Shown here piece after piece: positions 8,812 through 39,325 of a stretch of DNA of 39,325 nucleotides (its first letter is position 1; every line of letters starts with the position of its first letter). The notes under the pieces are model-generated. The model was not told the origin of the DNA. It did no database searches and saw only the letters and a program-made list of their open reading frames with translations. Source of the stretch: Fimbriimonadaceae bacterium. GTDB lineage: Bacteria; Armatimonadota; Fimbriimonadia; Fimbriimonadales; Fimbriimonadaceae. A program made the position numbers and the translations under genes. Location of the stretch: contig JANJUB010000194.1 in NCBI GenBank assembly GCA_024710805.1, positions 1 to 39,325 on the forward strand, in the 5' to 3' direction.

Positions 8812-10463
8812 AGCGTCGCCTCGCCAACGGGCTCGGGAACGAGGGAGATCGCGTGAACCGGGCATTGGTCGAAGCACGTTCCGCAACCCGTGCACAGGTC
8901 GAAGTTGACCTTGTATCCCAATCCTGGGCCAAGCTTGACGATGGCGTCTTCAGGACACGCACCGTAGCATCCGTCACACTCGAAGCAGTTCCCGCACGAG
9001 AAGCACCGGCGAGCCTCGAACTGGGCATCTTGCGATTCCAGGCCCTTCGTCACTTCCCCGAACGTCCCTGTGCGCTCATCGAGGGGAAGCCGGTCCTGAG
9101 CTCGTGCCGCCGCATCGGCGAAGAACCACAGGCGCAATTTCTCAAGCGTGGCGATGTCCTTGCTCGCTTTAGGCTCGACTGCCTCGTTGCGCAGATACGC
9201 GTCGATGTTGCGGGCGGCCTTCTTGCCGTGGCCGACGGCCACGGTTACCGTGCGCTCTGAAGGCGCCATGTCGCCGCCTGCGAAGACCCCGGGGCGGCCC
9301 GTCATCATGGTGTCATCCACAACCACGACGCCGTCAGGTTGGAAGGCAATGTCCTCCATCTGTCGCAGGAACGTCGTGTCCGTGTCTTGGCCGAGGGCAA
9401 GGATCAAGTCGTCCGCTTCCAACGTCTCGATTTCCCCGGTCGGCTGAGGGCGGCCGTTTTTATCCAGGGCCATGACTTCGATCTCGACGGTTCCTTCTCC
9501 AACGGATTTGATCGTTCGAAGCCAATGGATCTTGATGCCTTCTTCGACGGCTTCGTCCGCCTCAAAGGCGTGAGCGGGCATGTGATCCTTGTCTCGACGG
9601 TAGATGATGAGGGGCTCGACTCCCAACCGGCGAGCGACCCGCGCCGCATCCATCGCCGTGTTGCCTCCGCCGTAGACGGCGACCCGCCGACCGAGGCGTG
9701 GCTGCTCGCCCATCTCGACACTCTTGAGGAAGCTGACGGCATCGAGAACCTTGCCCGCGTCTCGGGCGGGGATGTCCGTCTTCTTGCCGAGGTGGGCACC
9801 GACGGCGACGAATGCCGCGTCGAAGCGACCTGCCGTCATCTCCGCACGGAGGTCTTCGACCTTGTGGTTGAAGACGATGTCGACACCCAAGTCCTGGATG
9901 CGCGCGATCTCGGCATCCAGGATATTGCGCGGCAGTCGATAGGCCGGAATGCCGAAGTGCATCATGCCACCCGCCATCGGCCCCGCCTCAAGGATCACCA
10001 CTTTGTGACCCCGTCGCGCCAGTTGGTAGGCGCAGGAAAGACCCGCGGGCCCTGCCCCCACGACGAGGACGCGTTTCCCGGAGTCCGTTTGGGGGGTAGG
10101 GAAGCGCCACCCCTCCTGGATCGCAAGGTCGCCGAGATAACGCTCGACCGCGTGGATGCTGACCGGGCTCTCCATTTGGCCTCGGTTGCAGCTGGTTTCG
10201 CAAGGGTGATAACAGACGCGCCCGTGAACGGCGGGCATAGGATTGTCCTGAACGAGGATCTCCCAAGCTCCCCGATCATCGCCTTCGACGATCTTGGCAA
10301 GCCACCCTTGGATGTTCTCTCCTGCCGGGCATGCCGCATTGCAGGGCGGCATCAGGTCAAGGTAGATCGGACGCCTAGAACGAATCGCGCCCGTTGCGCG
10401 ATGCTGAGTCAGGTCCGGCGGCAAGGTCAAGTCACGGCGCTCTTTGCTCAAAGGAAACTCCAT
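8808..10463 (-). CDS. GltD-like NAD(P)/FAD oxidoreductase with C-terminal ferredoxin domain
   Basis: 551-residue flavoprotein of the glutamate synthase small-subunit / NfnB superfamily. The N-terminal Fe-S domain has CNAACPAGENIQGWL (from C41) and CYHPCETSCNRG (from C84). An FAD Rossmann motif, GAGPAGL, is at 136-142 and an NAD(P) motif, GGGNTA, at 265-270. The C-terminus adds ferredoxin-like cysteine clusters (CFSCGNCFECDGCYGACP and CTGCGTCFDQCP), which a plain GltD lacks. No large glutamate synthase subunit is nearby, and the gene is coupled to nifJ by a 4-bp overlap. It therefore probably exchanges electrons between PFOR-reduced ferredoxin and NAD(P)H. That function is an inference from context; the exact nucleotide and direction are unknown. 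No clear ribosome-binding site precedes ATG 10463. Confidence 0.9.
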   Translation of the reverse strand: MEFPLSKERRDLTLPPDLTQHRATGAIRSRRPIYLDLMPPCNAACPAGENIQGWLAKIVEGDDRGAWEILVQDNPMPAVHGRVCYHPCETSCNRGQMESPVSIHAVERYLGDLAIQEGWRFPTPQTDSGKRVLVVGAGPAGLSCAYQLARRGHKVVILEAGPMAGGMMHFGIPAYRLPRNILDAEIARIQDLGVDIVFNHKVEDLRAEMTAGRFDAAFVAVGAHLGKKTDIPARDAGKVLDAVSFLKSVEMGEQPRLGRRVAVYGGGNTAMDAARVARRLGVEPLIIYRRDKDHMPAHAFEADEAVEEGIKIHWLRTIKSVGEGTVEIEVMALDKNGRPQPTGEIETLEADDLILALGQDTDTTFLRQMEDIAFQPDGVVVVDDTMMTGRPGVFAGGDMAPSERTVTVAVGHGKKAARNIDAYLRNEAVEPKASKDIATLEKLRLWFFADAAARAQDRLPLDERTGTFGEVTKGLESQDAQFEARRCFSCGNCFECDGCYGACPEDAIVKLGPGLGYKVNFDLCTGCGTCFDQCPVHAISLVPEPVGEATL

Positions 10464-10812: not shown

Positions 10813-10905
10813 GTTAGTCTGAATGTTGTCGCAATAGTTGACCTAATTTCTATGGACTCTGATGAGCGACGAGTTCCTAGTATGCTGTCGAAGAAGGCGA
10901 TCTTC

Positions 10906-14493
<3,588 letters not shown>

Positions 14494-25795: not shown

Positions 25796-26557
25796 ATGGT
25801 GCTCAATCGGATTGCGGGTTTCCTGCTCCTAACGCTCATGGCTACCGGGTGTAGAAAGGGTGAGCGGTCCGTCAGCGCTGAACGACCGCCGGATTGGTAC
25901 TACGAGATTGCCATCGAGAAGCCGGTCATCAGCAAAGGCCGGAAGACCGTCTTCAGGCTCAGTCAGGGCATTCGAATCTACCGGGAAGGAAAGGCGTTGA
26001 CCTTATCACCGAATGGCTTCGGAATGGACAACGATACTCCACCGCCGAAGCCCTCAGAACTTCAACCGGGTGGCTTTTGGTTGCGCCGAGAACGCGGACA
26101 TCCGTGGGAGATTTCGCCCGATGAACCCGTTTCACGCCGTCCGACCTTCCGCAATGTGTTGGAGCACGGTTATGGAGAGGTGGTTTCAGCATTGGGGGTC
26201 GATGCCGTTGGCCCCGTCGACTATCCCGAGATCACGGCTTATAGGAAGGTAGGCGACTCCTGGCCCGTTTCCATCATTGTGGGGACCCGCCACAACAAGC
26301 GTAGAGTCGCCATGGTTTGCACCTTGCGAGAAGGTGTCGACGGCCGGAGAATCGAGTTCATCACGGCGGATTCGAGTAGGCAAAAGGGGGCATGGACGAT
26401 CGACGCCAAGGGTGAGTTGGTCGCTTACGAATCAGAGCAGATAGTCATCTCTACCCCAGTTGGAGTCCCCGAGAAGACGTCGATCTCGAAGGTCACGGTG
26501 AAGAAGAAGTTGGCCGCAAAACCAACGCCTCCGCCGACCGCGCGACAGGCGCTCTAG
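25796..26557 (+). CDS. Hypothetical lipoprotein
   Basis: 253 residues with a lipoprotein signal: MVLNRIAGFLLLTLMATGC, lipobox MATGC with C19 as the lipidated residue. The mature protein is basic at its C-terminus (KVTVKKKLAAKPTPPP) and has no motif I recognise; WYYEIAIEKPVISKGRKTVF and VVSALGVDAVGPVDYPEITAYR are the most structured parts. Starts without a Shine-Dalgarno, directly behind a near-consensus -10 box. Its TAG stop overlaps the convergent kynureninase stop as CTAG. Confidence 0.87.
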   Translation: MVLNRIAGFLLLTLMATGCRKGERSVSAERPPDWYYEIAIEKPVISKGRKTVFRLSQGIRIYREGKALTLSPNGFGMDNDTPPPKPSELQPGGFWLRRERGHPWEISPDEPVSRRPTFRNVLEHGYGEVVSALGVDAVGPVDYPEITAYRKVGDSWPVSIIVGTRHNKRRVAMVCTLREGVDGRRIEFITADSSRQKGAWTIDAKGELVAYESEQIVISTPVGVPEKTSISKVTVKKKLAAKPTPPPTARQAL

Positions 26558-27744
26558 CAGCCCTGGACCCTGGCCGTAATCTCTGCTGCACGATGGAGCT
26601 CGTCCACCGAGTTCAGCAGGTCGGGGCCAAAACGCACGTTGCCGCTCCGGGTGTCCGTGTTGACTCCCGCTCGGTACAGCGCTTCTCGAAACGCTTTCGC
26701 ATCCGCGTGGGGCATCAGAGCAAAACCGCCGAACTGGGTCGGATCAGACGGATCGAAGAACGGCACCCCGTTCCTTCGGAATGCCTCGCGCAACTCGGCG
26801 AGCTGTACGAGCGAGTACTCGCGCAAGCGATCGACGCCCATCTCCAGCGTGAACTCCAATCCCGAGCGGGCCTGATAGAACGGTAGGATCGCGGGCGTGG
26901 ATTCGAGCCAACCGTCGCCCCCCTCCGCGCGGATGGGCTCTTCAGGCCGGGCGTAGCTCCACACATCCTTCTTCGCAAACCAGCCGGTATCCAGCGTGCG
27001 CAGGTCCATCGCCCGAGGATGGATGGCCAACCAGCACGCACCGGTTCCGCCGCGCACGTACTTGTAGGACCCTCCCACCATGAAGTCGCAGCCGAGATCA
27101 TCCATCGAGAGCGGAATGACTCCGGCGGCATGATAGACATCGACGACGACTCTTGCGCCGACCGTATGTGCTTTCGCGACGATCTCAGCTAGGCCGTCGA
27201 TGATCTGACCGGTCGTGAACACGACCGCCGAAACCATGACCACGTCGACCCCCGGCTCGATCGCGGCGAGAATGTCGGAGGTATCGAAGAGCGCGGGGCT
27301 ACCCGGCGGCGGTTCAACCCATCGCACGTCGGCGCGGCCGCGCTCGCGATAGGTCTTGAGAATGAAGTCGATGCTGTCGAACTCCCCTCGCGTGGCAACG
27401 ACGGTCACCTTGTCCTTCGGGATCGCGTTCAAAACCGCGCGGAACCCCTGCCCGGCTGCCGTCTTGGGGACGACGTCTCCCGGCTTGGAGAGCCCGATCA
27501 GCCGGGCGATGTTGTCCCGAAACCGGCGTGCCTCATCCATCCAACCGCCGTCGTCCCAGACGCCGTCGAGCCGTTCGTACCAAAGGTCGAGCGCCTCTTG
27601 GACATCGGCGGCAAGGCGATCCAGCGGCCGGCCCAGAGAGTGGTTGGCGAGATAGATCTCGTCGCGTTGCAACACCCGCGAGAAGCGGGGCCACACGTGC
27701 TCGCGCAATCCGGCTTCGGTCAAGGCACCCGCCGGCAAGCTCAT
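26554..27744 (-). CDS. kynU: Kynureninase-like PLP enzyme
   Basis: 396-residue class V fold-type I PLP enzyme. Probably cleaves L-kynurenine to anthranilate and alanine. The Schiff-base lysine is K228 in GGSYKYVRGGTG, close to the kynureninase pattern, preceded by the PLP-binding aspartate segment VDVYHAAGVIPLSMDDLGCDFMVGG. The N-terminal IYLANHSLGRPL loop matches the substrate loop of the family. ATG 27744 overlaps the TGA of the dioxygenase as ATGA; the longer in-frame extension lies inside that gene. No arylformamidase gene, the expected middle step, is in the window. Confidence 0.92.
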   Translation of the reverse strand: MSLPAGALTEAGLREHVWPRFSRVLQRDEIYLANHSLGRPLDRLAADVQEALDLWYERLDGVWDDGGWMDEARRFRDNIARLIGLSKPGDVVPKTAAGQGFRAVLNAIPKDKVTVVATRGEFDSIDFILKTYRERGRADVRWVEPPPGSPALFDTSDILAAIEPGVDVVMVSAVVFTTGQIIDGLAEIVAKAHTVGARVVVDVYHAAGVIPLSMDDLGCDFMVGGSYKYVRGGTGACWLAIHPRAMDLRTLDTGWFAKKDVWSYARPEEPIRAEGGDGWLESTPAILPFYQARSGLEFTLEMGVDRLREYSLVQLAELREAFRRNGVPFFDPSDPTQFGGFALMPHADAKAFREALYRAGVNTDTRSGNVRFGPDLLNSVDELHRAAEITARVQGC

Positions 27745-28577
27745 CGGCCGATCTCCGTGCGCACGTCCCATAGCTCGGGGAACAGCCGGATGCCGAGCCC
27801 CTTCGCAAGGAACGGAATGCCCGACGAGCCGCCGGTGCCCATCTTGAAGCCGATGATCCGCTCGACGGTCTTCATGTGGCGGTAGCGCCAAAGCGAGAAC
27901 TGCTCTTCGACATCGACCAGCTTCTCGCACATCTCGTACGCATCCCAATACTGGGTGGGATCTTCGTAGATGCGCTTGAACACGGCGATGACATCCGCAC
28001 TTTCCTCATAGGGCTGCGACCAATCGCGTTCGACGCGGTCGGCAGGAATCGCGAAACGCCGCCGCGCGAGGTGGCGCAGGAACTCGTCGTACAGACTCGG
28101 TGTGTTGAGGAGCGCCGTTAGCTCGGCGTGGATCTCTGGCGCATGTTGAAACACCTTGATCGCCTTGGCGTCCTTGTTGCCGAACAGAAACTCGATCATG
28201 CGGTTCTGATAGCTTTGGAGACCGCTCGCCTGGCCCAGCACACCGCGGAACTGGGCGTACTCGCTCGGGGTCAGCGTTTCGAGCACCGCCCACTGCTCGA
28301 AAAGCATGCGCTGGATCTGCTTCACGCGAGCGAGGATCTTGAAGCAGGGCTCGAGTTTGTCGTGCTTGACATGCTCGACCGCTGATTTCAGCTCGTGGAT
28401 CGCGAGCTTCATCCAGAGCTCGGACGTCTGGTGTTGGATGATGAAGAGCAGCTCGTCGTGGTGGTCGGAAATCGGCTTCTGCGAGTCGAGAATCTGGTCC
28501 AACCCCAGATAGCTGCCGTAATCGAGCTTGTTCTCAAAATCGGTCTGGATGGTGTCTTCAAAGGCGCGCTCGGCCAT
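27741..28577 (-). CDS. kynA: Tryptophan 2,3-dioxygenase
   Basis: 278-residue haem enzyme opening the indole ring of L-tryptophan to N-formylkynurenine with O2; cytoplasmic. Visible features: HQTSELWMKL with active-site H49, QSYQNRMIEFLFGNK with the substrate-binding arginine R126, the proximal haem ligand H234 in RYRHMKTVER and the flexible GTGGSSG loop (T248). Length and layout are those of bacterial TDO. Two-gene operon with kynU. Use of O2 shows that the organism meets oxygen at least part of the time, despite the PFORs. Confidence 0.97.
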   Translation of the reverse strand: MAERAFEDTIQTDFENKLDYGSYLGLDQILDSQKPISDHHDELLFIIQHQTSELWMKLAIHELKSAVEHVKHDKLEPCFKILARVKQIQRMLFEQWAVLETLTPSEYAQFRGVLGQASGLQSYQNRMIEFLFGNKDAKAIKVFQHAPEIHAELTALLNTPSLYDEFLRHLARRRFAIPADRVERDWSQPYEESADVIAVFKRIYEDPTQYWDAYEMCEKLVDVEEQFSLWRYRHMKTVERIIGFKMGTGGSSGIPFLAKGLGIRLFPELWDVRTEIGR

Positions 28578-28717: not shown

Positions 28718-29110
28718 CTACGTAGGCGACTTCGCCTTTGAAGCCGCGTCGTTCTCGCTCTCGTACTTCGAAGGACACTTCACGAGCATCTGCTTCGAGT
28801 GGAACGAACCGTTCTCCTGGTAGCCGATGACAACGACCTGCGTTGCGGAAGCAAGGTTCGACTGCGGCGGGCCCGTGTAGATCACCGGAATCTCGCCGGT
28901 CTCGTCCTTAAGGACGAAGCGGGTCTCGCGACCGAGCGTGTTCAACGTCAGCGACCCAGGAACGAGCTGCCCCACGACGTGGACGTCGCGGCTTTGCGCA
29001 GCGGCCTCTTTGATGGTGACGTAAGGGCTGGCGTTCTGGACGAACACCGTCGTCAGCCCCACGGTCGCCACGAGGGCGACGACTCCAGAAATCAATGCAC
29101 CTTGTCTCAT
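28718..29110 (-). CDS. ccmE: CcmE-like periplasmic haem chaperone, CXXXY type
   Basis: 130 residues: an N-terminal membrane anchor (about 5-25), then a small OB-fold domain (VHVVGQLVPGSL, RFVLKDETGEIPVIYTGPPQ, VVVIGYQENGSFHSKQMLVKC). Classical CcmE binds haem through the histidine of HxxxY; here the motif is C112-P-S-K-Y116. This CXXXY form is the one known from Desulfovibrio and archaea, in a Ccm variant that lacks some classical components. GAGAGG lies just before ATG 29110. As the last gene of the multihaem operon it probably delivers haem to the cytochromes encoded upstream, together with CcmF. The OB-fold pattern and CXXXY support the call. Confidence 0.8.
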   Translation of the reverse strand: MRQGALISGVVALVATVGLTTVFVQNASPYVTIKEAAAQSRDVHVVGQLVPGSLTLNTLGRETRFVLKDETGEIPVIYTGPPQSNLASATQVVVIGYQENGSFHSKQMLVKCPSKYESENDAASKAKSPT

Positions 29111-29126
29111 ATTGCCTCTCTATCTC

Positions 29127-31094
29127 TTAATCCTTTGGTTGCTCATCCGTGGGCTCGTGCGAAGTTTCGGATGCGGGCTCATCGGATGGCTCAGCCGGTG
29201 GTTCCTCGGTTTCGACGGCTTCAGTCTCTTCGACCACTTCCTCAACTGCAGATGCCGGTTCCTCAGCCGCTTCCTCGGTTGTGGCCGGGGCTTCGGATGC
29301 GGCAGCCGCACCCTCCATCGCCTGGATGCGCTTCAACTCGTCGCCATGCTCTTCGCGCATTTCCTCTTCCGTCAGTGTGCCCGTGATGAAGACCGGGTTC
29401 ATGGGGAAACTCGACGGCTTGAAGTGGGTGTTGTAGAAGTGCCACGTCACGATCGTCAAGAAGGCGAGCACCGATTCATCTGTGTGGGCGATGTAGGCCA
29501 ACGGGATTCCGATGTCGGGTAGGAAGCCGCCGAAGAACACCGGGAACCACAGGATGAGGCCGGAGAACACCATGATCGGCATGCCCCAGTACACGGCGAA
29601 ATAGTCGAACTTCTCGCGGAACTGGAAGCGATCGTAGGACGGCGGATGCGGGCTCTTGCCCAAGTGGTACTTGACGGTTCCGACCAAGTCGCTGATGTCG
29701 CGTTTCCTCGGCCACATCGTCCACGAGTCGAAACTGAAGTTGGCTTTCTTCCAACGCCAGAGCAGCTCGAAGGTGTGGTAGATCCACACGGCGATCAGGC
29801 CGATTGCGGCGCCGCGGTGTACGACCTGCATCACTTCCATGCCTCCCATCGCCATGTAGAAGGCATGGAGGAAATCGTTGTTCGGGTAGCGGATCGGCAT
29901 ACCCGTCACCACGAGGAGCGTGAACGTGATGATCGTCAGCAGGTGCTGGATTCGCTGGGAAACCGTAAATCGCTGGTACCTCTTGACGCCCTCGATCTTC
30001 GTTTTCTTCTTCCTGGTGAAGATGTGGGTGCCCGCGGCCAGCATGCCAAACCCGACGGAAGCGATGGTGGTGTAGTAGCCGATGGGATTCGCGAAGACCG
30101 CAAACATGATCGAGGCGATCAGCGTCGCAAAGCCGAGCGCGACAAAGACGACCACTGGCGGAGAGACCCCGGAAGGCTTCTTGCCGAAGAGCGCCACGCG
30201 CATGTCGAACAGGATGCCGAGCAGCAGGAGTCCGAGCACGCCGAACGTGAGAATCTTGAAGAACCACTCAGTCGCGGTCAGAATCGGGTCATTCTTCACC
30301 GTGATGTGAAGGTGGCTGAAGCCCGAGTTCGCGAAGTTCATGGTCGCGCCAGCATGGCAACCGGCCTGGCCGCACGTCTTCGTTAGGTTTTCGCGGTGGG
30401 TGGTTGACTCTGGCTCGGAAGACGCCAAGACGCTGTGGCCGGTATGGCAGTCGGTGCAGATCGCGGTGTCCTCGCGACCAAATCGTAAGAGAGCCTTGCC
30501 GTGGAAGCTGGCCTCGTAGGAGGGCACGGCGTCGGTATCGACCTCGTGTCGCTCCATCTTGGCGACATCGTTATGGCACGAGGAGCACAGCTTAACCCGC
30601 TCCTTGCGGGTGCCCTCGCTTGGGCGAACCACTGCATGCGCATCGGTACCCGTCGTGTGGCAAGAGATGCAGGTCGGGGCATCTTCAGGGAAGTTCTCGA
30701 TCTTGCCATGGACGCTAAGCATCAAGGCATCGGCGGCGTCGGGGTGGCAAGAGGCACAGTCCGGCTTCTCTGCCTTCATCTCATCCGTGTGCGGATACTC
30801 TGGCGTATAGCTGGTGTGGCAACTGGTGCAGTCCAAATCCTTGTGAGGGGACTTGTCTAAAGCCGCCATGTGCACGGCAGGAGCCGATTCCGTTTCCGGA
30901 TCGTGACAGCCCAAGCAGGCTTGGTTCGTCTCTGACCGCTCTTGGGCGAGGTTCTTATCGGGTTGCGCCAGCAGGTCTTGGGCAAACACGCCGACCAAAA
31001 CAAAGGGCACAGTGGCAATGAGGAGGGGCAGAACGCGACGCCCAATAGGAAGCATAAGCCGCTTGATCAGCGAAGATTGCTCTGAGTTACGCAT
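29127..31094 (-). CDS. Inner-membrane heptahaem c / b-type cytochrome fusion (CbcL-like quinol dehydrogenase)
   Basis: 655 residues. A signal/anchor (about 11-38) precedes a periplasmic domain with six CXXCH motifs (C60, C89, C113, C142, C170, C213) and one CX4CH (C241-GQAG-C246-H247). From about 273 on there are several membrane helices with histidines placed for b-haems (H384, H426, H440, H537, H552), resembling formate dehydrogenase gamma / cytochrome b561-type subunits. The c+b fusion layout is that of Geobacter CbcL, an inner-membrane quinol oxidase for extracellular electron transfer. The last ~60 residues are a Glu/Pro/Ala-rich tail. ATG 31094 is preferred: AGGAGG is 6 bp upstream. It probably passes electrons from the quinone pool to the cytochromes of the same operon; direction and substrate are inferred. 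Confidence 0.9.
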   Translation of the reverse strand: MRNSEQSSLIKRLMLPIGRRVLPLLIATVPFVLVGVFAQDLLAQPDKNLAQERSETNQACLGCHDPETESAPAVHMAALDKSPHKDLDCTSCHTSYTPEYPHTDEMKAEKPDCASCHPDAADALMLSVHGKIENFPEDAPTCISCHTTGTDAHAVVRPSEGTRKERVKLCSSCHNDVAKMERHEVDTDAVPSYEASFHGKALLRFGREDTAICTDCHTGHSVLASSEPESTTHRENLTKTCGQAGCHAGATMNFANSGFSHLHITVKNDPILTATEWFFKILTFGVLGLLLLGILFDMRVALFGKKPSGVSPPVVVFVALGFATLIASIMFAVFANPIGYYTTIASVGFGMLAAGTHIFTRKKKTKIEGVKRYQRFTVSQRIQHLLTIITFTLLVVTGMPIRYPNNDFLHAFYMAMGGMEVMQVVHRGAAIGLIAVWIYHTFELLWRWKKANFSFDSWTMWPRKRDISDLVGTVKYHLGKSPHPPSYDRFQFREKFDYFAVYWGMPIMVFSGLILWFPVFFGGFLPDIGIPLAYIAHTDESVLAFLTIVTWHFYNTHFKPSSFPMNPVFITGTLTEEEMREEHGDELKRIQAMEGAAAASEAPATTEEAAEEPASAVEEVVEETEAVETEEPPAEPSDEPASETSHEPTDEQPKD

Positions 31095-31115
31095 TCCACC
31101 CCTCCTGAAGTTCAT

Positions 31116-31442
31116 TTACTTGAGACCAGGGTTGCTGTCAGCCTTGATTTCGTCGATGTTCTTCTTGCCGTCCTTGTCGGAGTCGAGGTTCTCGAGTTCC
31201 TTGAGAATAGCCGGCGTCAGCTTCTTAGACTTCGCCTTCTTCATCTCGACCTGCATATCGATCCCGTAGGGATTGAGTTTGCCCCCCTTGGGTGACACAT
31301 GGCAGACAGCGCATGCCGCCTTCTTCAGGCCCGAGTCCTTCGCGACCTTGTAATGGTCGTCAAAGACCTTACCGAGCGGGGCAAACGCCATAGCAAGAGC
31401 TCCGAGACCGGCGATCATGCTGACGGTGAGTAGTCGTTTCAT
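31116..31442 (-). CDS. Small monohaem cytochrome c with calcium-loop motif
   Basis: 108 residues: a signal peptide (MKRLLTVSMIAGLGALAMAFA), one haem site C44-AV-C47-H48 followed by SPKGGKLNPYG, and a C-terminal DSDKDGKKNIDE segment (D87, D89, D91, E98) matching a DxDxDG calcium-binding loop of EF-hand/thrombospondin-3 style. Probably a soluble periplasmic electron carrier between the inner-membrane cytochrome and the outer conduit; that is inference. Two adjacent ATGs (31445, 31442) are possible; the second has AAGGAG with 6-bp spacing. The preceding ccmF stop TAA overlaps that ribosome-binding site. Confidence 0.87.
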   Translation of the reverse strand: MKRLLTVSMIAGLGALAMAFAPLGKVFDDHYKVAKDSGLKKAACAVCHVSPKGGKLNPYGIDMQVEMKKAKSKKLTPAILKELENLDSDKDGKKNIDEIKADSNPGLK

Positions 31443-31452
31443 CATTTTCTCC

Positions 31453-33846
31453 TTACATTGATTTGACGAGCGGGGGGGCCTCCGATTTCGCCTCACTTGA
31501 ATCTGAGACATCGGTTGGGCGCGGCCCGCGGTATCGGCGATAAGCGGCGGCTAAGAACCCGGCAATCGTCATGATCGCCGTCCCCAGCCAAACAAGCCCG
31601 ACGAGTGGCTTATGGAAGATCTCGACGGGATAAATCGGAGTGTTGAGCTGCACACGGAGGGTGATCGAGCGGTCCGCGGCATTCATGCCGGTCATCACGA
31701 GCTGCATGTTCTGGTCGAGTTCGACCGCGTGCTCTATGGGGTCTCCACCCGTGCCGACTTCCAGCTTCGGAATGATCGTATCGTCACGGCCTTGCCCAGT
31801 AACCTTGATTTTGGCTCCGAAAAGGGTGCCCTTCGAGCCCATCTCCCCTTCACGCACCATCTCTTCGTAGGTCAGGGTCAACTCACCGAGTTTGACTGAC
31901 TTACCGACGGGAACGTTCACGTCTTGGCTGGCGCGATCTTGGGGCGGTCCTAGCGAGACATAGACGTCATGGAGAATGCCGCGCTGAATGTGCGGCCAGA
32001 CCATCGAGTTCATTTGGTCGCCCTGGCGTACGTTATAAAGACCAGGACTGGCCGTGAAGAGAACCTCACCATTCTTATGCGGGTCGCGGAGCTCGAAGAG
32101 CACTTGGTTGTTCCGATCCGAAAGATCGGACGTCATGCCCTTGTAATGCACTTCGTAGCCGAGTAGCCGTCCGGGGTGATCTCGCATGACCACCGTTTCA
32201 TCATGTTGCTCGAATCCGCGAGAGACAATGAGTCCCGCCATGAGGATCGCGATGCCGATGTGCGACGTGAACGACATCACGCCCATCTTTGTGCGCTTGA
32301 CGAGTTCGATGACACGCCACGTGTTGGCGACGAGCACCATGTAACAGATGCCCACCAGCAGCAACAGGAACATCAGCCCCTTGACCTTGTAACCGCCGGT
32401 CATGGTGATAGTCGGGTTCAAGTTGATGAGGGTTCGGGCCGGTGTAACGACCGTCAAGAAGAGGGTGATGCCGGTTAGACCGATCGCAATGCAGGCGATC
32501 GAGTAGAAGCGTCCCCAGAACTCCTTCGGCTTCATGGATCGCCAGCTCACGAAGGGCGTGATCGCCATGAGCAGCATCAGCGGAATGAAGATGTAGGGGA
32601 GCACCTGGTGGTACAGCGCTTCTTCGACGACCTTTGGCTTCTGGCCCATGAGCGCCATCACCAAGGGGACGCTCATTCCAATCGCCGTGGCGAGGCCCAT
32701 GAGGACGAGCAACAACGCGCCCATCATGTAGAACACTTCCCGGCGGAACACGCCCCCCGGCTCATCGGCGTGCATCGCGTTTCGGCGAGCCTGGAAGGCT
32801 CGAACGGTCCAGAGCCCCAAGAAACCGAGCACCGAGGCGCCCATGACGGCCACAAGCAGTTTGAGGGCCGACCGATCCATCTCGGCAAAGCTGTGAACGC
32901 TGGCTTCGGACAGCAGGCCCGAGCGGGTCAAGAACGTTCCGTACACGAACGCTAGGAAGGGCAGCGAAGCCAGCAGCGTATTGGTGATCTTCCAGGTCTT
33001 TCGCGTCGACTGGACGATGACGCCGTGGATGAGCGCGACCACAAAGCACCAGGGGACAAAACTGACGTTCTCGACCGGATCCCACATCCAGAAGCCGCCC
33101 CAGCCAAGGGTCTCATAGGCCCAGAATCCGCCCATGCAGAGGCCGAGGCCGACCAGCGTCGCCGCGATGATGGCCCAGGGCCGCACGATCGGCAACCACT
33201 CGTCGTAGTCGCGCCGAACCAGCGCGGCGATTGCGAGGGCGAAGAGAACGGTGAGCGATCCAAATCCGAGGAAGATCGTCGGGGGGTGGATCGTAACCCA
33301 GTAGTTCTGCAGCGATGGGGCAAGTCCCATGCCCTCGACAGGGACAAAGGGCGTACCCTCGAACTTGTTCAAGTCGAACGGCGACTCGAAAGCCAGGATA
33401 TTCGAGATCGCGCCCAGGAAGAGCGCATAAACGATGGTGAACCATCGCCGTAGGTTCTGGGCGTGACGAACGGCGAGGATGCCAAAGATCGCTGCGCTTA
33501 CGGCCCACAGAAGGAAACTGCCCTCTTGGCCCGACCAGATGCCGGCGATGCGATAGGGGACCGCGTTCTTGGTATCGGCGTGTCCCCAAACATATTCGTA
33601 TTCAAATCGGTTGCCTACGAAGAGCGTGGCGAGCCCAAGAAAGGTGCCGAAGAGCGAGAGGCACCCGAGGGTGAAAGACCAAGCGCCGACGCGTTCGAAG
33701 GCTTGCTTGCGCGGGCTGATGTACCAGGCGAGAGCCGAGATCGCAAAGAGCAGAGCGGCGGCGATCACGAGGGCTCGACAACCTGTGCCCAGAGCGAGAG
33801 ACCATGCGGGCGGTGAGACGAGGTTGTTCGGGTCCAGTTCGGTCAT
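31453..33846 (-). CDS. ccmF: CcmF/NrfE-type cytochrome c haem lyase
   Basis: 797-residue polytopic inner-membrane protein attaching haem to apocytochromes c on the periplasmic side. The tryptophan-rich WWD-type motif is visible as WGGFWMWDPVENVSFVPW near residues 244-262, with flanking conserved histidines (SVHSFAEMD, VTIHPPTIFLGFG). It is longer than the usual ~650 residues because of a large periplasmic loop before the final helix (FKGMTSDLSDRNN... to LNTPIYPVEIFHKPLVG). No CcmA-D, CcmG or CcmH is in the window. It lies downstream of a stable stem-loop that separates it from the structural cytochrome genes. The ribosome-binding site is weak. Confidence 0.95.
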   Translation of the reverse strand: MTELDPNNLVSPPAWSLALGTGCRALVIAAALLFAISALAWYISPRKQAFERVGAWSFTLGCLSLFGTFLGLATLFVGNRFEYEYVWGHADTKNAVPYRIAGIWSGQEGSFLLWAVSAAIFGILAVRHAQNLRRWFTIVYALFLGAISNILAFESPFDLNKFEGTPFVPVEGMGLAPSLQNYWVTIHPPTIFLGFGSLTVLFALAIAALVRRDYDEWLPIVRPWAIIAATLVGLGLCMGGFWAYETLGWGGFWMWDPVENVSFVPWCFVVALIHGVIVQSTRKTWKITNTLLASLPFLAFVYGTFLTRSGLLSEASVHSFAEMDRSALKLLVAVMGASVLGFLGLWTVRAFQARRNAMHADEPGGVFRREVFYMMGALLLVLMGLATAIGMSVPLVMALMGQKPKVVEEALYHQVLPYIFIPLMLLMAITPFVSWRSMKPKEFWGRFYSIACIAIGLTGITLFLTVVTPARTLINLNPTITMTGGYKVKGLMFLLLLVGICYMVLVANTWRVIELVKRTKMGVMSFTSHIGIAILMAGLIVSRGFEQHDETVVMRDHPGRLLGYEVHYKGMTSDLSDRNNQVLFELRDPHKNGEVLFTASPGLYNVRQGDQMNSMVWPHIQRGILHDVYVSLGPPQDRASQDVNVPVGKSVKLGELTLTYEEMVREGEMGSKGTLFGAKIKVTGQGRDDTIIPKLEVGTGGDPIEHAVELDQNMQLVMTGMNAADRSITLRVQLNTPIYPVEIFHKPLVGLVWLGTAIMTIAGFLAAAYRRYRGPRPTDVSDSSEAKSEAPPLVKSM

Positions 33847-33877
33847 TGTTTCAAGTCCAAATCAAATCTAGGGTGTT

Positions 33878-33909
33878 GCTCCGTGCCAACCCGAAGGCTG
33901 GCACGGAGC
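33878..33909 (-). promoter_or_regulatory. Stable UUCG-capped stem-loop inside the cytochrome operon
   Basis: Read on the minus strand, a 14-bp stem (GCTCCGTGCCAGCC pairing with GGTTGGCACGGAGC, one G-U pair) is closed by a C(UUCG)G tetraloop. It lies between the octahaem cytochrome stop and the ccmF start with no T-run after it. Such hairpins often protect the upstream message or partly stop transcription. Confidence 0.7.
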
Positions 33910-33916
33910 GAATAGG

Positions 33917-35356
33917 CTAGTTGTCTTCGGGCAGATTCATCTCTGCCTGGTTAGCCTTCTTTCGGTGCTCTTCGATGACTCTGAGCTGCTGCTCAGCGCT
34001 CATCTTCGGAGCGGCCGGTCTCGGTGCATTCAGCGCGTCCAGGTTCGTGTTGGCTACGGTCACCAAGTGCTTGGCATACGGGGCGTTGTGCACGCCGTAG
34101 TCGCCCGAGCGGATGATGAAGTAGTAGTTGTGTCGAGCTCGCTTGATCTCGATCGGCACGTTGGCCTGGTTCGGAGGTGTCTTACCCTCTGCCTGAATGA
34201 GCGACGTGTAGTCCCAGAAGTCGGCATCGCCGAGGTTCGCCGCTGCCCACGCTTCCATTCGGCCGCGCAGGGAAGTCAGCAGACCAAGGACTTCCGACTT
34301 CACTTGGCCCGTTCGGGCGGCGGCATCGGCTGCCGTATGGCAGGGGGCGCAACCCTTGTCGAAGCTGACGGTGAAGCTATGTCGAGAGTCCGGCATATGG
34401 CACTTCGTACACTGTCCCGGCGCATTGGCGTGAGCCGTGTTGCGCTGGACGGGGCCAGAGCCCTCCACGCCGCCGAAGCCCATCAGCATGTTGTACTGAT
34501 TGCTGTCGTGCATGCTCGGACGAGACGTGCTTGCCTGCAATCGAGAATCGGCAGGGTTCGTACCGCGGCCATTGTGGCATTGCGCACAGCCGTGATCGAA
34601 GTTGGTGAACTGCTGAGCCGTCGTTCCCGGAGCAACGTCGGTGGTGTCGGTGTTGAAGTTCTTCTTGCGAAGCATGACTTCTTTGCCGTCATCCGTCAAG
34701 TTGCCGGTCTTCGAGTGAGGGTTGTGGCACGTCACGCAGGTAGCCGAGTGAGGTGCACTGGTCAACGTGTTCTCTGCAATCCAGCGAATCTCGTCGTCCT
34801 GTAGGTCAGCGAGGACCTTGCCCTTATCGTTAACCATGTTGCGGAACAAGCCGCTATGGCACGACATACAGGCCGAGCTTCGAGACTGACCTGGGTTCGT
34901 CACGCCGCTGTCGACGGGCGAGGCGATCAGCTTCACGTGAGCCGAGAAGTTGTACTGGTCGTGGGTCGGACCGTGACATTGCGCACAAACGATCGGCGAG
35001 GTCGCCTTTGGGAATGTGAGAATGTTCTCTTTGGACGGTGCGGCTTGGTGGGCGCTGCCCGGGCCATGGCACCGTTCGCAGGTCACGCCCTTTTCGGCGT
35101 GAACTGTGTCCTTCCAGTGAGCGTAGATTGGGTCGTCGGGGCTCTTACCGCCGTGACATCCCGCGCAGGCATCCGCCCCGATGTAGGTAGCTGACTTTTG
35201 GTCAACTCCTAGCAAGGCGAGAAACTGCTGGGTCACTGACGGCAATCCACCCGTATCCGTTTGCGGTCCACCCACGCCGCCGCAGCTCTGGAGGGCCAGC
35301 GCCGCCGCGATGATGGGAATCGACGCAAACAGGGTCATGAGCCATCGGGATCTCAT
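33917..35356 (-). CDS. Octahaem c-type cytochrome lipoprotein
   Basis: 479 residues with eight CXXCH motifs (first cysteines at 64, 93, 124, 163, 207, 257, 316, 336). The N-terminus ends in ALQSCGG, so C25 is a likely lipidation site. The C-terminal haem-free segment (KRARHNYYFIIRSGDYGVHNAPYAKHLV) resembles the C-terminal helices of octahaem nitrite/tetrathionate-reductase-type cytochromes. It follows the beta-barrel gene by 46 bp and could be the outer-surface terminal cytochrome of the conduit, as MtrC is in Shewanella, though the haem layout is different. A catalytic periplasmic role is the alternative. GGAGGA lies 5 bp before ATG 35356. Confidence 0.92.
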   Translation of the reverse strand: MRSRWLMTLFASIPIIAAALALQSCGGVGGPQTDTGGLPSVTQQFLALLGVDQKSATYIGADACAGCHGGKSPDDPIYAHWKDTVHAEKGVTCERCHGPGSAHQAAPSKENILTFPKATSPIVCAQCHGPTHDQYNFSAHVKLIASPVDSGVTNPGQSRSSACMSCHSGLFRNMVNDKGKVLADLQDDEIRWIAENTLTSAPHSATCVTCHNPHSKTGNLTDDGKEVMLRKKNFNTDTTDVAPGTTAQQFTNFDHGCAQCHNGRGTNPADSRLQASTSRPSMHDSNQYNMLMGFGGVEGSGPVQRNTAHANAPGQCTKCHMPDSRHSFTVSFDKGCAPCHTAADAAARTGQVKSEVLGLLTSLRGRMEAWAAANLGDADFWDYTSLIQAEGKTPPNQANVPIEIKRARHNYYFIIRSGDYGVHNAPYAKHLVTVANTNLDALNAPRPAAPKMSAEQQLRVIEEHRKKANQAEMNLPEDN

Positions 35357-35402
35357 AGTAGTCCTCCGTTCGTAACTGTTCCTTCTCTCCGTAGCGAAAG
35401 AT

Positions 35403-37034
35403 TCAAAACTTCACCGTGTAGCGAACCCCGAGGAATGTTGTTTCATACCCCGTAAGTCCGTAGAGTCGATCAGAAAACCGCCAAGGCGCGACGACCAGAT
35501 CGAGAGAGTGGTCGGTCGAGATTTGGCGGCGATACTGCAGCGTCAGCTGAGTGCCGCTCCAGTTGTTGGTGCCAAAGGTGTTCAGGCTGGCCGACAGAGT
35601 TTCGCGTTCATTGCGAACCCAGTCAAGCCCCATCGAGAATGCCGTGCTGTTCGGGAAGAACATATCCAGCGTATCGTTGGTGCCTTCCGAAGCACCCTTG
35701 GCGCGAATCGCGTCGTAGCTCCACTCGGCATAGCCGAGCAGGCTCGGTGCGAACTGATAGCTTCCACCGAGTGCGATGTTTTGCCAGCCTACGTCGACGC
35801 CGCGTTGCTTGTTCTGGCGGAATCGGTAGGTGTAGCTCGCATAGCCGGTGAACAGCTCGTTTCCGCCGTCCAACTTGATTTGGCCCATCGCTTTGTCGTC
35901 CCACAGCATCTGCCGCGGATCGGCGCCCGCGATGCGGGCCGAGGCCGTCATGTCTTCCCAGTTTCCACGTAGGGTCACGCGGATACCGTTATTGAGCCGT
36001 CCGCTGAGGCGCGCATCGTACGTATTCCACTTGGGAACATCGACGAACGAGCGATCGGTGCGAACGCGCTCCGCCTCTCGGTGACGGAATCCAAGCTGGA
36101 GGTTCCAGCTGCCTAGTTGGTGGTTCAGTTTCAGGCCTGAGTTGAACCGTTTCCGGGTGTAGGCGTTCTGAACCATGTTGCGGATGTCGAACTCGTCTCG
36201 TCCCGCGTTGAACTGCAGTGAGGTAGCAGGACCCAGGTCGAAGTAGCCGGCCATGGCCAGCGTCCGGACATTGCCGGAAGGCCGACCCGCCTGCTCGATC
36301 CGCGTGTATCCTGCGGCACCTTGCAGACTCAATCGGTCGCCAATCGTGCCCGCGATGTGGCCCTCGATTCGGCGCTGCAGCGTTGCCGGCTGCCGGCCAG
36401 TGTCGTCGAAGGTGCGGCGATCCGTGATGTTCACTCCGGCTTGGATCGGGCCGAAGCGACCCTCAAGTCCGCCGGCGACCGTTCGCGAGCGCACCCGCCC
36501 CGTAGCCTTAGGAGGAACGTAGCTTTGGGAGCGATCATCGCTGCGGTAGCTGACGAAGGCTCCGACATTCGGAGCGATCGCATGCTCGACTGAAATCGTG
36601 CCGACCTTGTCGCGGCTCCGCGCCGTAGGAACCCAGCTGGGTTCTGCGTGGTATTGCCGCTCTTGGACGCTGCCGCGGATCGCGGTCAGGCCGGAGTTGA
36701 GATACACCAACCCAGAGCCGTACGAGTCCTGACCCGGCGTACCACGCCAGACCAAGGAGTAATAAGGATGACCCTCGCCGCCCGGGTTCATGTACTTCAG
36801 CTCGGCCAGCGTGAGCCCCTCGGGGACACGGGCGAACTGGCCCATCCGGAACCGGTTGCCGCTGGCTTTCCAAGTGGAATAGCCAAAGGTCAGCGAGTTG
36901 TACCGGACGGGGATTTCGACTTCTTCCTGCTCTTCGGGTTCCTCGGTGGGCGTCGTTTCCTGAGCCCACGCCCCCATCGCCAGCACGAGAACTCCCGCGA
37001 GCGATGCTAGATTGCGCAGTGTGGTTTGACTCAT
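35403..37034 (-). CDS. Outer-membrane beta-barrel protein, MtrB/PioB-like porin of a cytochrome conduit
   Basis: 543 residues: a signal peptide (MSQTTLRNLASLAGVLVLAMGAWAQ), a short acidic Glu/Pro linker (TPTEEPEEQEEVE), then a long run of alternating amphipathic strands rich in Gly, Tyr, Arg and Asp, ending in ...FLGVRYTVKF, whose terminal Phe is the assembly signal of outer-membrane barrels. The N-terminal part (LTFGYSTWKASGNRFRMGQF, LAELKYMNPGGEGHPYYSLVW) has the look of decahaem-associated barrels. ATG 37034 is chosen because GAGG precedes it; the longer frame runs into the decahaem gene. The TGA of that gene lies 8 bp upstream. The gene order decahaem then barrel is that of mtrAB/dmsEF. 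The family is inferred mainly from architecture and neighbour. Confidence 0.8.
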   Translation of the reverse strand: MSQTTLRNLASLAGVLVLAMGAWAQETTPTEEPEEQEEVEIPVRYNSLTFGYSTWKASGNRFRMGQFARVPEGLTLAELKYMNPGGEGHPYYSLVWRGTPGQDSYGSGLVYLNSGLTAIRGSVQERQYHAEPSWVPTARSRDKVGTISVEHAIAPNVGAFVSYRSDDRSQSYVPPKATGRVRSRTVAGGLEGRFGPIQAGVNITDRRTFDDTGRQPATLQRRIEGHIAGTIGDRLSLQGAAGYTRIEQAGRPSGNVRTLAMAGYFDLGPATSLQFNAGRDEFDIRNMVQNAYTRKRFNSGLKLNHQLGSWNLQLGFRHREAERVRTDRSFVDVPKWNTYDARLSGRLNNGIRVTLRGNWEDMTASARIAGADPRQMLWDDKAMGQIKLDGGNELFTGYASYTYRFRQNKQRGVDVGWQNIALGGSYQFAPSLLGYAEWSYDAIRAKGASEGTNDTLDMFFPNSTAFSMGLDWVRNERETLSASLNTFGTNNWSGTQLTLQYRRQISTDHSLDLVVAPWRFSDRLYGLTGYETTFLGVRYTVKF

Positions 37035-37042
37035 GATAGGCC

Positions 37043-38017
37043 TCAATGCTTCAAGAATCGCGGATCCGTGTTGCTTCCGTGCGATGCGACGTGGCAGCCA
37101 GCCGTCCAACAGGTTTGACCCGGGTAGTGGCGGCCCAGCTTGTCGGTGTGACACTGGGAGCAAAGGCCGCGGGATACCGAGTTCAACATCTTCGGGTTGT
37201 TCGAGCCGTGCGGCTGGTGGCATTCCAGACAGCCGTCGCCCGTGTGGCCGGAAACCGGATCATGCTCGAATACGAAGGGTCCCGCCATCTCTGTGTGGCA
37301 CGTGACGCAGTTGTTCTTAAGCGCGTCCTTGCGAACCTTCGCATCCTTGGTGGGGTGCGGCGTATGGCAGTCGCTGCACACCATGGAACCTTCTGGAACC
37401 GGGTGGTGCGAAGCGTGCTTGAAGTCGCCCAAGGTGGGCCCGTGGCAGGAACCGCACAACGTGGCCTCATCCGCTCTGAGCATGGCTTTGGGGTCGACCT
37501 TGGCCACGAAGAGCGGCGAACGAGCATCCTTGGCGTTACCCTTCTTGACGCCCGTTAGTGCGGGGTCGGAGGTCGGGTGAATCTGGTGGCACGAAACGCA
37601 CGATAGGCCAGCTTTCTTGTGCTCATTGACCTTCCAGTGCACTTCGCTCAGCGTTTGGCCGTGGCATCGCATACAAGCGGCGCTGGACTCTTCCGGCGTC
37701 ATCTTGCGGAACGCGATAACTTCGGCGTTTTCTTCGGCTTGGTGGATGCGGCCCGGTCCGTGGCATCCTTCGCAGCCCTGCTTATCAAGCGGTAGGCCAG
37801 CGTGGGCCATTAACGGGGCATGAGGCGATGCCGCAAACCCCTTCGAAACATCTTCGTGGCAGCTGGCACATGCCTCGCTGCCCATGTAGTCGTCTTCGGT
37901 TGCGCGGGCGAAGAGCCGCTCGGCCTGGGATTTCCCCTTGCCTTGCTGCTCCGAATGCGCAAAGCCGAAGAGCAACAACAAGACGCCAATCGCAAGAAAG
38001 ATGGCCTGATACTTCAT
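37043..38017 (-). CDS. Decahaem c-type cytochrome, MtrA/DmsE-like
   Basis: 324 residues, near the 333 of MtrA. Signal peptide (MKYQAIFLAIGVLLLLFGFAHS), then nine CXXCH motifs (first cysteines at 50, 82, 115, 140, 188, 214, 237, 263, 286) and a tenth, CX4CH site, C303-WTAG-C308-H309. The repeats CHQPHGSNN and the terminal CH-x-ASHGSNTDPRFL match the typical HGSN...FL end of the DmsE/MtrA family. Such proteins form a haem wire inserted in an outer-membrane barrel, here encoded 8 bp downstream. ATG 38017 has AGGGGA 8 bp upstream; the longer frame in the AT-rich promoter region is rejected. It is probably the first gene of the operon. Confidence 0.93.
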   Translation of the reverse strand: MKYQAIFLAIGVLLLLFGFAHSEQQGKGKSQAERLFARATEDDYMGSEACASCHEDVSKGFAASPHAPLMAHAGLPLDKQGCEGCHGPGRIHQAEENAEVIAFRKMTPEESSAACMRCHGQTLSEVHWKVNEHKKAGLSCVSCHQIHPTSDPALTGVKKGNAKDARSPLFVAKVDPKAMLRADEATLCGSCHGPTLGDFKHASHHPVPEGSMVCSDCHTPHPTKDAKVRKDALKNNCVTCHTEMAGPFVFEHDPVSGHTGDGCLECHQPHGSNNPKMLNSVSRGLCSQCHTDKLGRHYPGQTCWTAGCHVASHGSNTDPRFLKH

Positions 38018-38156: not shown

Positions 38157-38176
38157 CCCAAAACAGGCGTTTTGGG
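38157..38176 (-). terminator. Terminator-like hairpin downstream of the SUMF1-fold gene
   Basis: Perfect 8-bp stem CCCAAAAC/GTTTTGGG with a 4-base loop, 27 bp past the stop of the minus-strand SUMF1-fold gene; the following minus-strand bases are moderately T-rich. It would separate that gene from the cytochrome operon. Confidence 0.5.
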
Positions 38177-38203: not shown

Positions 38204-38980
38204 CTACGGCTCGCAGACGACGCGGAAGCCCACGATCGGGCCGTCAGAGAGCCACCAGCGGCTCTTCGGAAGCTGGGGATCGGACATCTGCCAGTCGGGG
38301 TCATAGGGCCGCCGAGCGGTCGGAATCTGTAGGTCCAATTTGTCCCGGAAGGTGCCCCCGGCAAGCACCGGTTCGCCCTTCATGTCGAGCACCCATTCTC
38401 CAACGTTGCCGTACATATCGTGGATGCCCCACGCGTTCGGCTCTTTCTTGCCGACGGGCTGGGTTTGACCCTTGCTATTACCTGCGTGCCAAGCAACCTT
38501 GTTGGCGGTGGGCAAGTCCATCATCGCGTTGCCAACCTTGCCGGCACGGCAGGCAAGCTCCCATTCTGCCTCGGTCGGCAACCGATACTTCTTCTTCGTC
38601 ACCGACGAAAGCCAGCGGGCGTACATCTCGGCAGACGAGACGTTCAAGTTGATGGCTGGATACCCGTTGTGCCCCCAGCCCAGGTCGGGCAAGGTGTAGC
38701 CGCGGCTCGGGCGGGCGATCGCGTCCGCCGCGTACTCGGTCTGATCATAGGGCTTCGACGGCTCGCCGCTCGCGAGGAACGCATCGAAGGCTTCCCAGGT
38801 CGTCTCCGTCTTCGCAATGTAGAACGGCTTGACCTCGACTTCCTTGTTCCCGATCTTGACCTTCCCCGCCGGAACGGCGATCATCTCGACCTTGGCCGTA
38901 GACTTGGGCAGCGTTTCGGTGAAGGGTCGCAGTACGGGGCCGTCCTGCAGAGACGTCAAAACAATCAAAGTGGCAAGCAT
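38204..38980 (-). CDS. SUMF1/FGE-fold protein without catalytic cysteines
   Basis: 258 residues with the formylglycine-generating-enzyme fold: FYIAKTETTWEAFDAFL, the hallmark YRLPTEAEWELACRAG, MYGNVGEWVLDM, AGGTF and a C-terminal VGFRVVCEP. True FGE enzymes carry an active-site cysteine pair before the last strand; the segment here (TARRPYDPDWQMSDPQLPKSRWWLSDGP) contains none, so sulfatase activation is unlikely and a structural, ligand-binding or regulatory role is more probable. A short hydrophobic N-terminus (MLATLIVLTSL) may be a signal. Its ATG overlaps the divergent apbE start. Confidence 0.9.
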   Translation of the reverse strand: MLATLIVLTSLQDGPVLRPFTETLPKSTAKVEMIAVPAGKVKIGNKEVEVKPFYIAKTETTWEAFDAFLASGEPSKPYDQTEYAADAIARPSRGYTLPDLGWGHNGYPAINLNVSSAEMYARWLSSVTKKKYRLPTEAEWELACRAGKVGNAMMDLPTANKVAWHAGNSKGQTQPVGKKEPNAWGIHDMYGNVGEWVLDMKGEPVLAGGTFRDKLDLQIPTARRPYDPDWQMSDPQLPKSRWWLSDGPIVGFRVVCEP

Positions 38981-39325
38981 GGGAGTTCTTCTAGGTCTAG
39001 TGGCCGCAGCTATGGTTTCGACGCCGCAGCCGCTTGAACGTTTTACCTTTACGCAGTATCACATGGGGGTCGACGCCCGCATCATCGCCTACGCGCCCGA
39101 TGAAGCTACGGCAGAAAAGGCCTGTGCGGCGGCATTTGCGCGGATCGCTGAGCTCGACTCCATCATGAGCGACTACCGCAAGGATAGCGAACTGAATCGC
39201 CTTTGCGCGCGGGCCGGTGGCCCACCCGTCCAGGTGTCAGCCGACCTGCTGACCGTGTTCATCCGGGCCCAGGAAGTATCGAGACTGACCGGTGGCGCTT
39301 TCGATATCACGGCTGCGCCGGTGAT
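38979..39325 (+). CDS. apbE: ApbE-family FAD:protein FMN transferase (3' end outside window)
   Basis: First ~115 residues of an ApbE protein, which attaches FMN covalently to Thr/Ser of periplasmic or membrane-associated flavoproteins. Motifs: YHMGVDARIIAYAPDE near the N-terminus, then ELDSIMSDYRKDSELNRL and SRLTGGAFDITAAPV. A short hydrophobic N-terminus (MGVLLGLVAAAMVS) suggests export. The frame is open to the window edge. Start: ATG 38979, overlapping by two bases the ATG of the divergent SUMF1-fold gene (CATG); ATG 39012 and GTG 38970 are alternatives, with no clear ribosome-binding site. ApbE beside a porin-cytochrome operon suggests a flavinylated electron carrier, which is not visible here. 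Confidence 0.88.
   Translation, partial: MGVLLGLVAAAMVSTPQPLERFTFTQYHMGVDARIIAYAPDEATAEKACAAAFARIAELDSIMSDYRKDSELNRLCARAGGPPVQVSADLLTVFIRAQEVSRLTGGAFDITAAPV

Follow-up and report, generated by a model that had tools for sequence, protein, structure and literature searches.

The closest described relatives of the locus reported here are electron conduits that combine a multihaem cytochrome with an outer-membrane β-barrel: MtrCAB of Shewanella (6R2Q), the MtoAB and PioAB systems, and Pcc of Geobacter (OmbB-OmaB-OmcB), which follows the same logic of a barrel, a periplasmic cytochrome and an outer cytochrome. The hosts of mtrCAB given by Baker et al. are classes of Proteobacteria, Acidobacteriia and Gemmatimonadetes, with Armatimonadota not listed (PMC8805035). 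For the latter phylum, Kato et al. reported MtoAB-like proteins in one metagenome-assembled genome (MAG) and Cyc2 in another, and found cytochromes with at least six haems only in the other two class-level clades, not in their Fimbriimonadia MAGs (PMC9671151). Here, we analyzed a 39,325-nucleotide stretch of DNA from a Fimbriimonadaceae bacterium (assembly GCA_024710805.1, contig JANJUB010000194.1; the whole stretch is hereafter called the window), the minus strand of which carries a run of seven close-set genes from position 38017 down to 28718. We read these genes, at a probability of roughly 0.76, as a conduit for electrons across the cell envelope of an Armatimonadota bacterium, with an MtrA-in-MtrB-type wire, an octahaem cytochrome replacing MtrC and, most likely, outward electron flow. 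The original prediction, made from the DNA letters, had allowed that the host phylum might be one without described conduits; with an MtoAB-like Armatimonadota MAG already published (PMC9671151), this does not hold, and the notion of a first conduit in the phylum was dropped. No description of a decahaem-barrel-octahaem trio was found in the literature searched, from which most subscription papers were absent.

Open reading frame and domain searches recovered all seven genes on one strand and in the order originally proposed: a decahaem cytochrome, a barrel, an octahaem lipoprotein, CcmF, a monohaem cytochrome, a fusion of c- and b-type cytochrome domains (c/b fusion) and CcmE, separated by gaps of 8, 46, 70, about 10, 0 and 16 bp (5′ to 3′ along the presumed operon, with ATG starts). 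The cluster resembles MtrCAB in bringing together a decahaem MtrA homolog, a 26-strand barrel of predicted MtrB fold and a multihaem lipoprotein, and MtoAB/PioAB in pairing an MtrA-family cytochrome with an MtrB-type barrel. It differs from MtrCAB in that the barrel is shorter (543 aa) and falls under the sequence-profile threshold, an octahaem of another family (8 haems, 479 aa) takes the place of the decahaem MtrC, CcmE and CcmF are embedded, and the quinol module is of the CbcL type instead of CymA. Unlike MtoAB and PioAB, it includes an extra conserved octahaem lipoprotein and a barrel unrecognised by TIGR03509, and it combines 10-haem and 8-haem cytochromes, whereas Pcc has an 8-haem periplasmic and a 12-haem outer cytochrome (PMC4245776). 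Gene content, homology, the fold of the barrel as modelled, adjacency across the phylum and a duplication of CcmF are established in this analysis.

The decahaem cytochrome (37043..38017, minus strand; 324 aa) carries nine CXXCH motifs and one CX4CH motif behind a Sec signal without a lipobox, and all ten haem motifs are retained in its full-length orthologs. It scored 192.8–193.2 bits against TIGR03508, just above the cut-off of 192.2. A profile of 12 orthologs matched the MtrA chain of 6R2Q (6R2Q_A) with E 3.4e-41 across both halves; this chain is mislabelled by molecule name in the sequence table, the entry itself being the Mtr complex. The predicted MtrA/DmsE likeness is thereby borne out. 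Together with TIGR03508, the best NCBIfam model was NF041028 (GSU2203 of Geobacter), under its curated cut-off.

The adjoining barrel (35403..37034, minus strand) comprises 543 aa with a Sec signal and no cysteine. An AlphaFold model built from 11 sequences (pLDDT 81.8) contains 26 strands, the number found in MtrB (PMC7198977). The top Foldseek match of this model was MtrB of 6R2Q (E 1.8e-12, TM 0.71), with other rows at about 0.4–0.5, and VIA-align likewise placed 6R2Q_B first (Z 25.4, rmsd 3.2, 487 aligned; runner-up Z 17.2). By its model, the barrel thus has the MtrB fold, and a best score to an unrelated porin family, which the original prediction had named as the outcome that would speak against it, did not materialize: MtrB led the PDB matches by a wide margin. 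The sequence of the window barrel, on the other hand, gave no significant match to MtrB/PioB, one relative matches Porin_4 and one Wzi, and identity between barrels is low, as might be expected if the protein were an ordinary porin or TonB-type receptor beside periplasmic cytochromes, with no trans-membrane wire. We consider this explanation highly improbable, given that the MtrB fold match lies far above every TonB receptor, that there are 26 strands, and that barrel and decahaem are adjacent in 57/59 genomes. The claimed MtrB/PioB likeness therefore stands by predicted fold but not by the TIGR03509 profile. Among the barrel relatives, TIGR03509 was matched by 1/11 (E 0.003), and the best NCBIfam model, NF041027 (GSU2204, the Geobacter neighbor of GSU2203), matched 3/11 members weakly and under its curated cut-off.

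To place the locus in its phylum, strong matches to the decahaem, barrel and octahaem proteins were surveyed in 291 Armatimonadota genomes and found in 63, 60 and 61 of these, respectively. Decahaem and barrel occur together in 59 (hypergeometric p about 1e-55, shared ancestry ignored), and in 57/59 the barrel is the next same-strand match after the decahaem, with a median gap of 63 bp between match ends. The octahaem lies directly 3′ of the barrel in 53/55 genomes having both, and in all four exceptions to either adjacency the partners are on different contigs. This co-occurrence and adjacency across the survey argue that the decahaem-barrel pairing is not due to chance. The trio is present in about 60/291 genomes, nearly always adjacent and in conserved order. 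Because the trio occurs in the window's order in other families as well, including Chthonomonadales-labelled loci without an embedded CcmF, it is the core of the system, to which the loci nearest the window add CcmF, CcmE, the monohaem protein and the c/b fusion as accessories. A single barrel in the 291 genomes passed the TIGR03509 cut-off (G217:C1:3201771-3203747); its genome is not a trio carrier, decahaem-type matches are found no more than 2 kb away (C1:3204160-3204858), and the pair is perhaps of the published MtoAB-like type. The named genomes with decahaem relatives are Armatimonadetes and Chthonomonadales MAGs. One same-genus genome (locus L051, JADZEW010000016.1), deposited as 'Methanoregulaceae archaeon isolate SJ84', holds an armatimonad locus with proteins 89–99% identical; the record is probably misnamed or a mixed bin, and the archaeal origin implied by its name was ruled out, as Armatimonadetes/Chthonomonadales MAGs make up the rest of the close relatives.

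The third member of the trio (33917..35356, minus strand; 479 aa, eight CXXCH) is a lipoprotein with the lipobox LQSC, kept at C25 in full-length orthologs, and is our candidate for an outer-surface terminal cytochrome. Its profile found its best solved relatives in 6QVM (E 8e-12) and 6I5B (E 8e-11). The former bears the title of an undecahaem S-layer cytochrome from Carboxydothermus ferrireducens, which fits the 11-haem OmhA (PMC7829351), and the latter is OcwA of Thermincola, structurally grouped with NrfA, c554 and MccA (PMC6703420); both sit at the cell surface, carry multiple haems and have been implicated in Fe(III) reduction (PMC6703420, PMC7829351). OcwA and OmhA, with 9 and 11 haems, come from Gram-positive cells, which have no outer membrane, whereas the protein described here is an 8-haem lipoprotein encoded beside a putative outer-membrane wire. 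What it appears to have in common with these two, CXXCH aside, is a G-x-x-G-[VI]-H-N motif in the C-terminal part and the predicted helices there; its fold match to 6QVM was weak (E 0.08). We assign it with moderate confidence, from these sequence comparisons, to an OcwA/NrfA-superfamily-like rather than an MtrC-like type. Family assignment from Pfam matches (MtrC domain II/IV, c7, c3, c552) was abandoned since these are mostly CXXCH-driven, and PF22113 matched 4/10 members over part of the protein only.

Matches to NrfA, MccA and cytochrome c552 profiles beside OcwA raise the question of whether the octahaem might itself be a catalytic NrfA-superfamily reductase that acts on a soluble acceptor (nitrite, sulfite or another) and receives its electrons across the outer membrane in the manner of DmsEFAB. 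OcwA itself reduces nitrite (PMC6703420), and among 23 orthologs seven histidines outside the haem motifs are invariant, which for eight haems leaves room for one open site. However, three further histidines are 83–87% conserved, so that all haems may be bis-His ligated; no CXXCK haem is present in the sequence, and no DmsA-like molybdoenzyme is encoded within the seven-gene block. Such a catalytic role appears unlikely to us.

On the inner-membrane side, the c/b fusion (29127..31115, minus strand) has seven haem-c motifs (six CXXCH, one CX4CH) followed by a b561-type membrane domain (PF01292, 39.7 against a cut-off of 30.1), with PF14522 and PF14537 over cut-off, and a TIGR01583 match below cut-off. 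By hydropathy alone, several weak segments are seen, where the CbcL/MtrH/MtoC type has six C-terminal transmembrane helices. Such a multihaem c domain at the N-terminus, joined to a HydC/FdnI-like b-type membrane domain, is the arrangement of CbcL, MtrH and MtoC and upholds the proposed CbcL likeness as one of architecture, with seven haem motifs against nine in Geobacter CbcL. The preceding gene (31116..31445, minus strand) encodes a small secreted monohaem protein with one CXXCH, a candidate periplasmic carrier that has no confident family and a weak NF041762 match; two or more paralogs surround the conduit in loci L036, L038, L042 and L056. Inspection by eye showed an additional NapC-like multihaem open reading frame at L033 (2-1096) and a membrane-tailed monohaem protein at L053 (16954-17766) and L056 (16983-17837). 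As the inner-membrane partner varies in this way, the quinol modules of conduit relatives seem to be interchangeable.

In the conduit that we favor, the c/b fusion would oxidize quinol, connecting the quinol pool with the periplasm, and electrons would pass to the monohaem protein or straight to the decahaem. The latter, inside the 26-strand barrel, is predicted to form an insulated wire of haems across the outer membrane, from which electrons would leave through the octahaem, acting in the place of MtrC as the outer electron exchanger. We infer insertion of the wire, surface display of the octahaem, assembly, direction and acceptor from the parts described above; the most likely course is outward, under oxygen shortage, to an acceptor outside the cell, for example Fe(III)/Mn(IV) or a humic compound. 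A COX1 haem-copper oxidase in the host genome and two genes for pyruvate:ferredoxin/flavodoxin oxidoreductases, located on opposite strands of the window, suggest a facultative organism that uses the conduit at low oxygen. The latter genes flank a glutamate-synthase-small-subunit-like oxidoreductase (5239-8895, 8808-10463 and 10852-14493).

The same conduit could run inward, as in Mto and Pio, with extracellular Fe(II) oxidation or electron uptake feeding the quinone pool via the c/b fusion. The oxidase in the genome would accommodate this direction, homologs of CbcL, MtrH and MtoC also occur in Fe(II) oxidizers (PMC6295460), and MtoA of another Armatimonadota MAG groups near PioA/MtoA (PMC9671151). 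Inward flow is, however, at odds with a conserved octahaem lipoprotein related to terminal reductases and with a window metabolism that looks heterotrophic, and we regard it as a serious but less than likely alternative. Descriptions of MtoAB and PioAB, moreover, usually include no cytochrome at the outer surface.

Several observations weigh against an outward trans-envelope conduit. The window barrel has no Pfam match, PF11854 included, and none to TIGR03509. For the octahaem, the profile matches are boosted by CXXCH motifs, the haem-free C-terminus alone had OcwA as its sole match, with an E of 0.72 that is not significant, and the structure model was poor (pLDDT 46, ten sequences), its C-terminal helices alone being used. 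The seven-gene operon encodes no dedicated multihaem periplasmic shuttle; the conduit had been called complete, and although decahaem, barrel, octahaem and CbcL-type module are all present, this part is missing. Lastly, because CbcL/MtrH/MtoC homologs serve both electron directions, including in Fe(II) oxidizers, direction is not readable from these relatives (PMC6295460).

The remaining genes concern haem supply. CcmF (31453..33846, minus strand; 797 aa) has the WGGFWMWDPVE motif, with the cytochrome-assembly domain matches PF01578 and PF16327 over cut-off, and CcmE (28718..29110, minus strand) has the Cys-type haem motif CPSKY (PF03100, 56.9 against 24.6), so that the System I features of the Ccm pathway, including the haem-binding residue of CcmE, are present. 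A second CcmE-CcmF pair lies elsewhere in the genome. In a 35-row CcmF tree, the conduit-linked proteins fall into one clade (support 99/98), which also takes in a protein of genome G009 on a 4.3-kb contig where linkage cannot be seen. The clade excludes the remaining CcmFs, and with them the second one encoded by the window's genome; among the relatives, most conduit genomes have two CcmFs and most others one. The CXXXY motif was present in all CcmEs examined, second copy included, a form that archaea and some bacteria are known to have (PMC9084895). With 26 covalent-haem motifs in the four cytochromes of the operon, the linked CcmF and CcmE may help to supply the many haems required. CcmB and CcmC are outside the operon, about 6 kb upstream in a same-genus genome, and ccmB-ccmC-like frames lie at L056 (8342-9882), directly upstream of the decahaem, and at L100 (9332-10764), either directly upstream of or at most about 6 kb from the conduit; more of the Ccm system therefore clusters at the conduit than the window shows. 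The idea that the conduit brings its own haem maturation is thus supported for a conduit-linked CcmF paralog but not for CcmB and CcmC. Placing Ccm genes beside a conduit, which had been called unusual, is less so given six complete and two partial cases of mtrCAB clusters adjoining ccmA-I operons (PMC8805035); the addition here is the conduit-linked CcmF paralog clade.

At the 5′ boundary, an intrinsic-terminator-like hairpin (38157..38176, minus strand; consensus match only) closes the upstream FGE-sulfatase gene and separates it from the seven-gene block, and a promoter scan gave nothing above chance. An ApbE-type FAD:protein FMN transferase gene (38829-39323, plus strand) is cut off by the end of the contig, and its continuation apparently lies on contig C171 of the same genome; in genome G001, too, this gene adjoins the conduit. 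Downstream, tryptophan 2,3-dioxygenase and kynureninase-like genes (26554-28577) lie on the same strand and are possibly co-transcribed with the conduit.

Together, these data put at about even odds a conduit lineage peculiar to Armatimonadota, with a diverged-barrel MtrAB-type wire, an NrfA/OcwA-superfamily cap, linked CcmF/CcmE and interchangeable quinol modules. The trio suggests, too, that a cytochrome from an unrelated family, one that is known from iron-reducing Gram-positive bacteria, can take over the role at the outer surface. Surveys of extracellular electron transfer rely on profiles of known parts, and the standard MtrB profile finds 1/291 genomes where a homolog of the window barrel stands beside an MtrA homolog in about 60. 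Because sequence profiles see almost nothing of this barrel, such surveys would probably miss it, and where barrels have diverged, counts of the trait are probably too low. If such a lineage exists, extracellular respiration would be a common trait of the phylum, present in about a fifth of the sampled genomes. Relatives with single-contig genomes are clear candidates for electrode or Fe(III) work.

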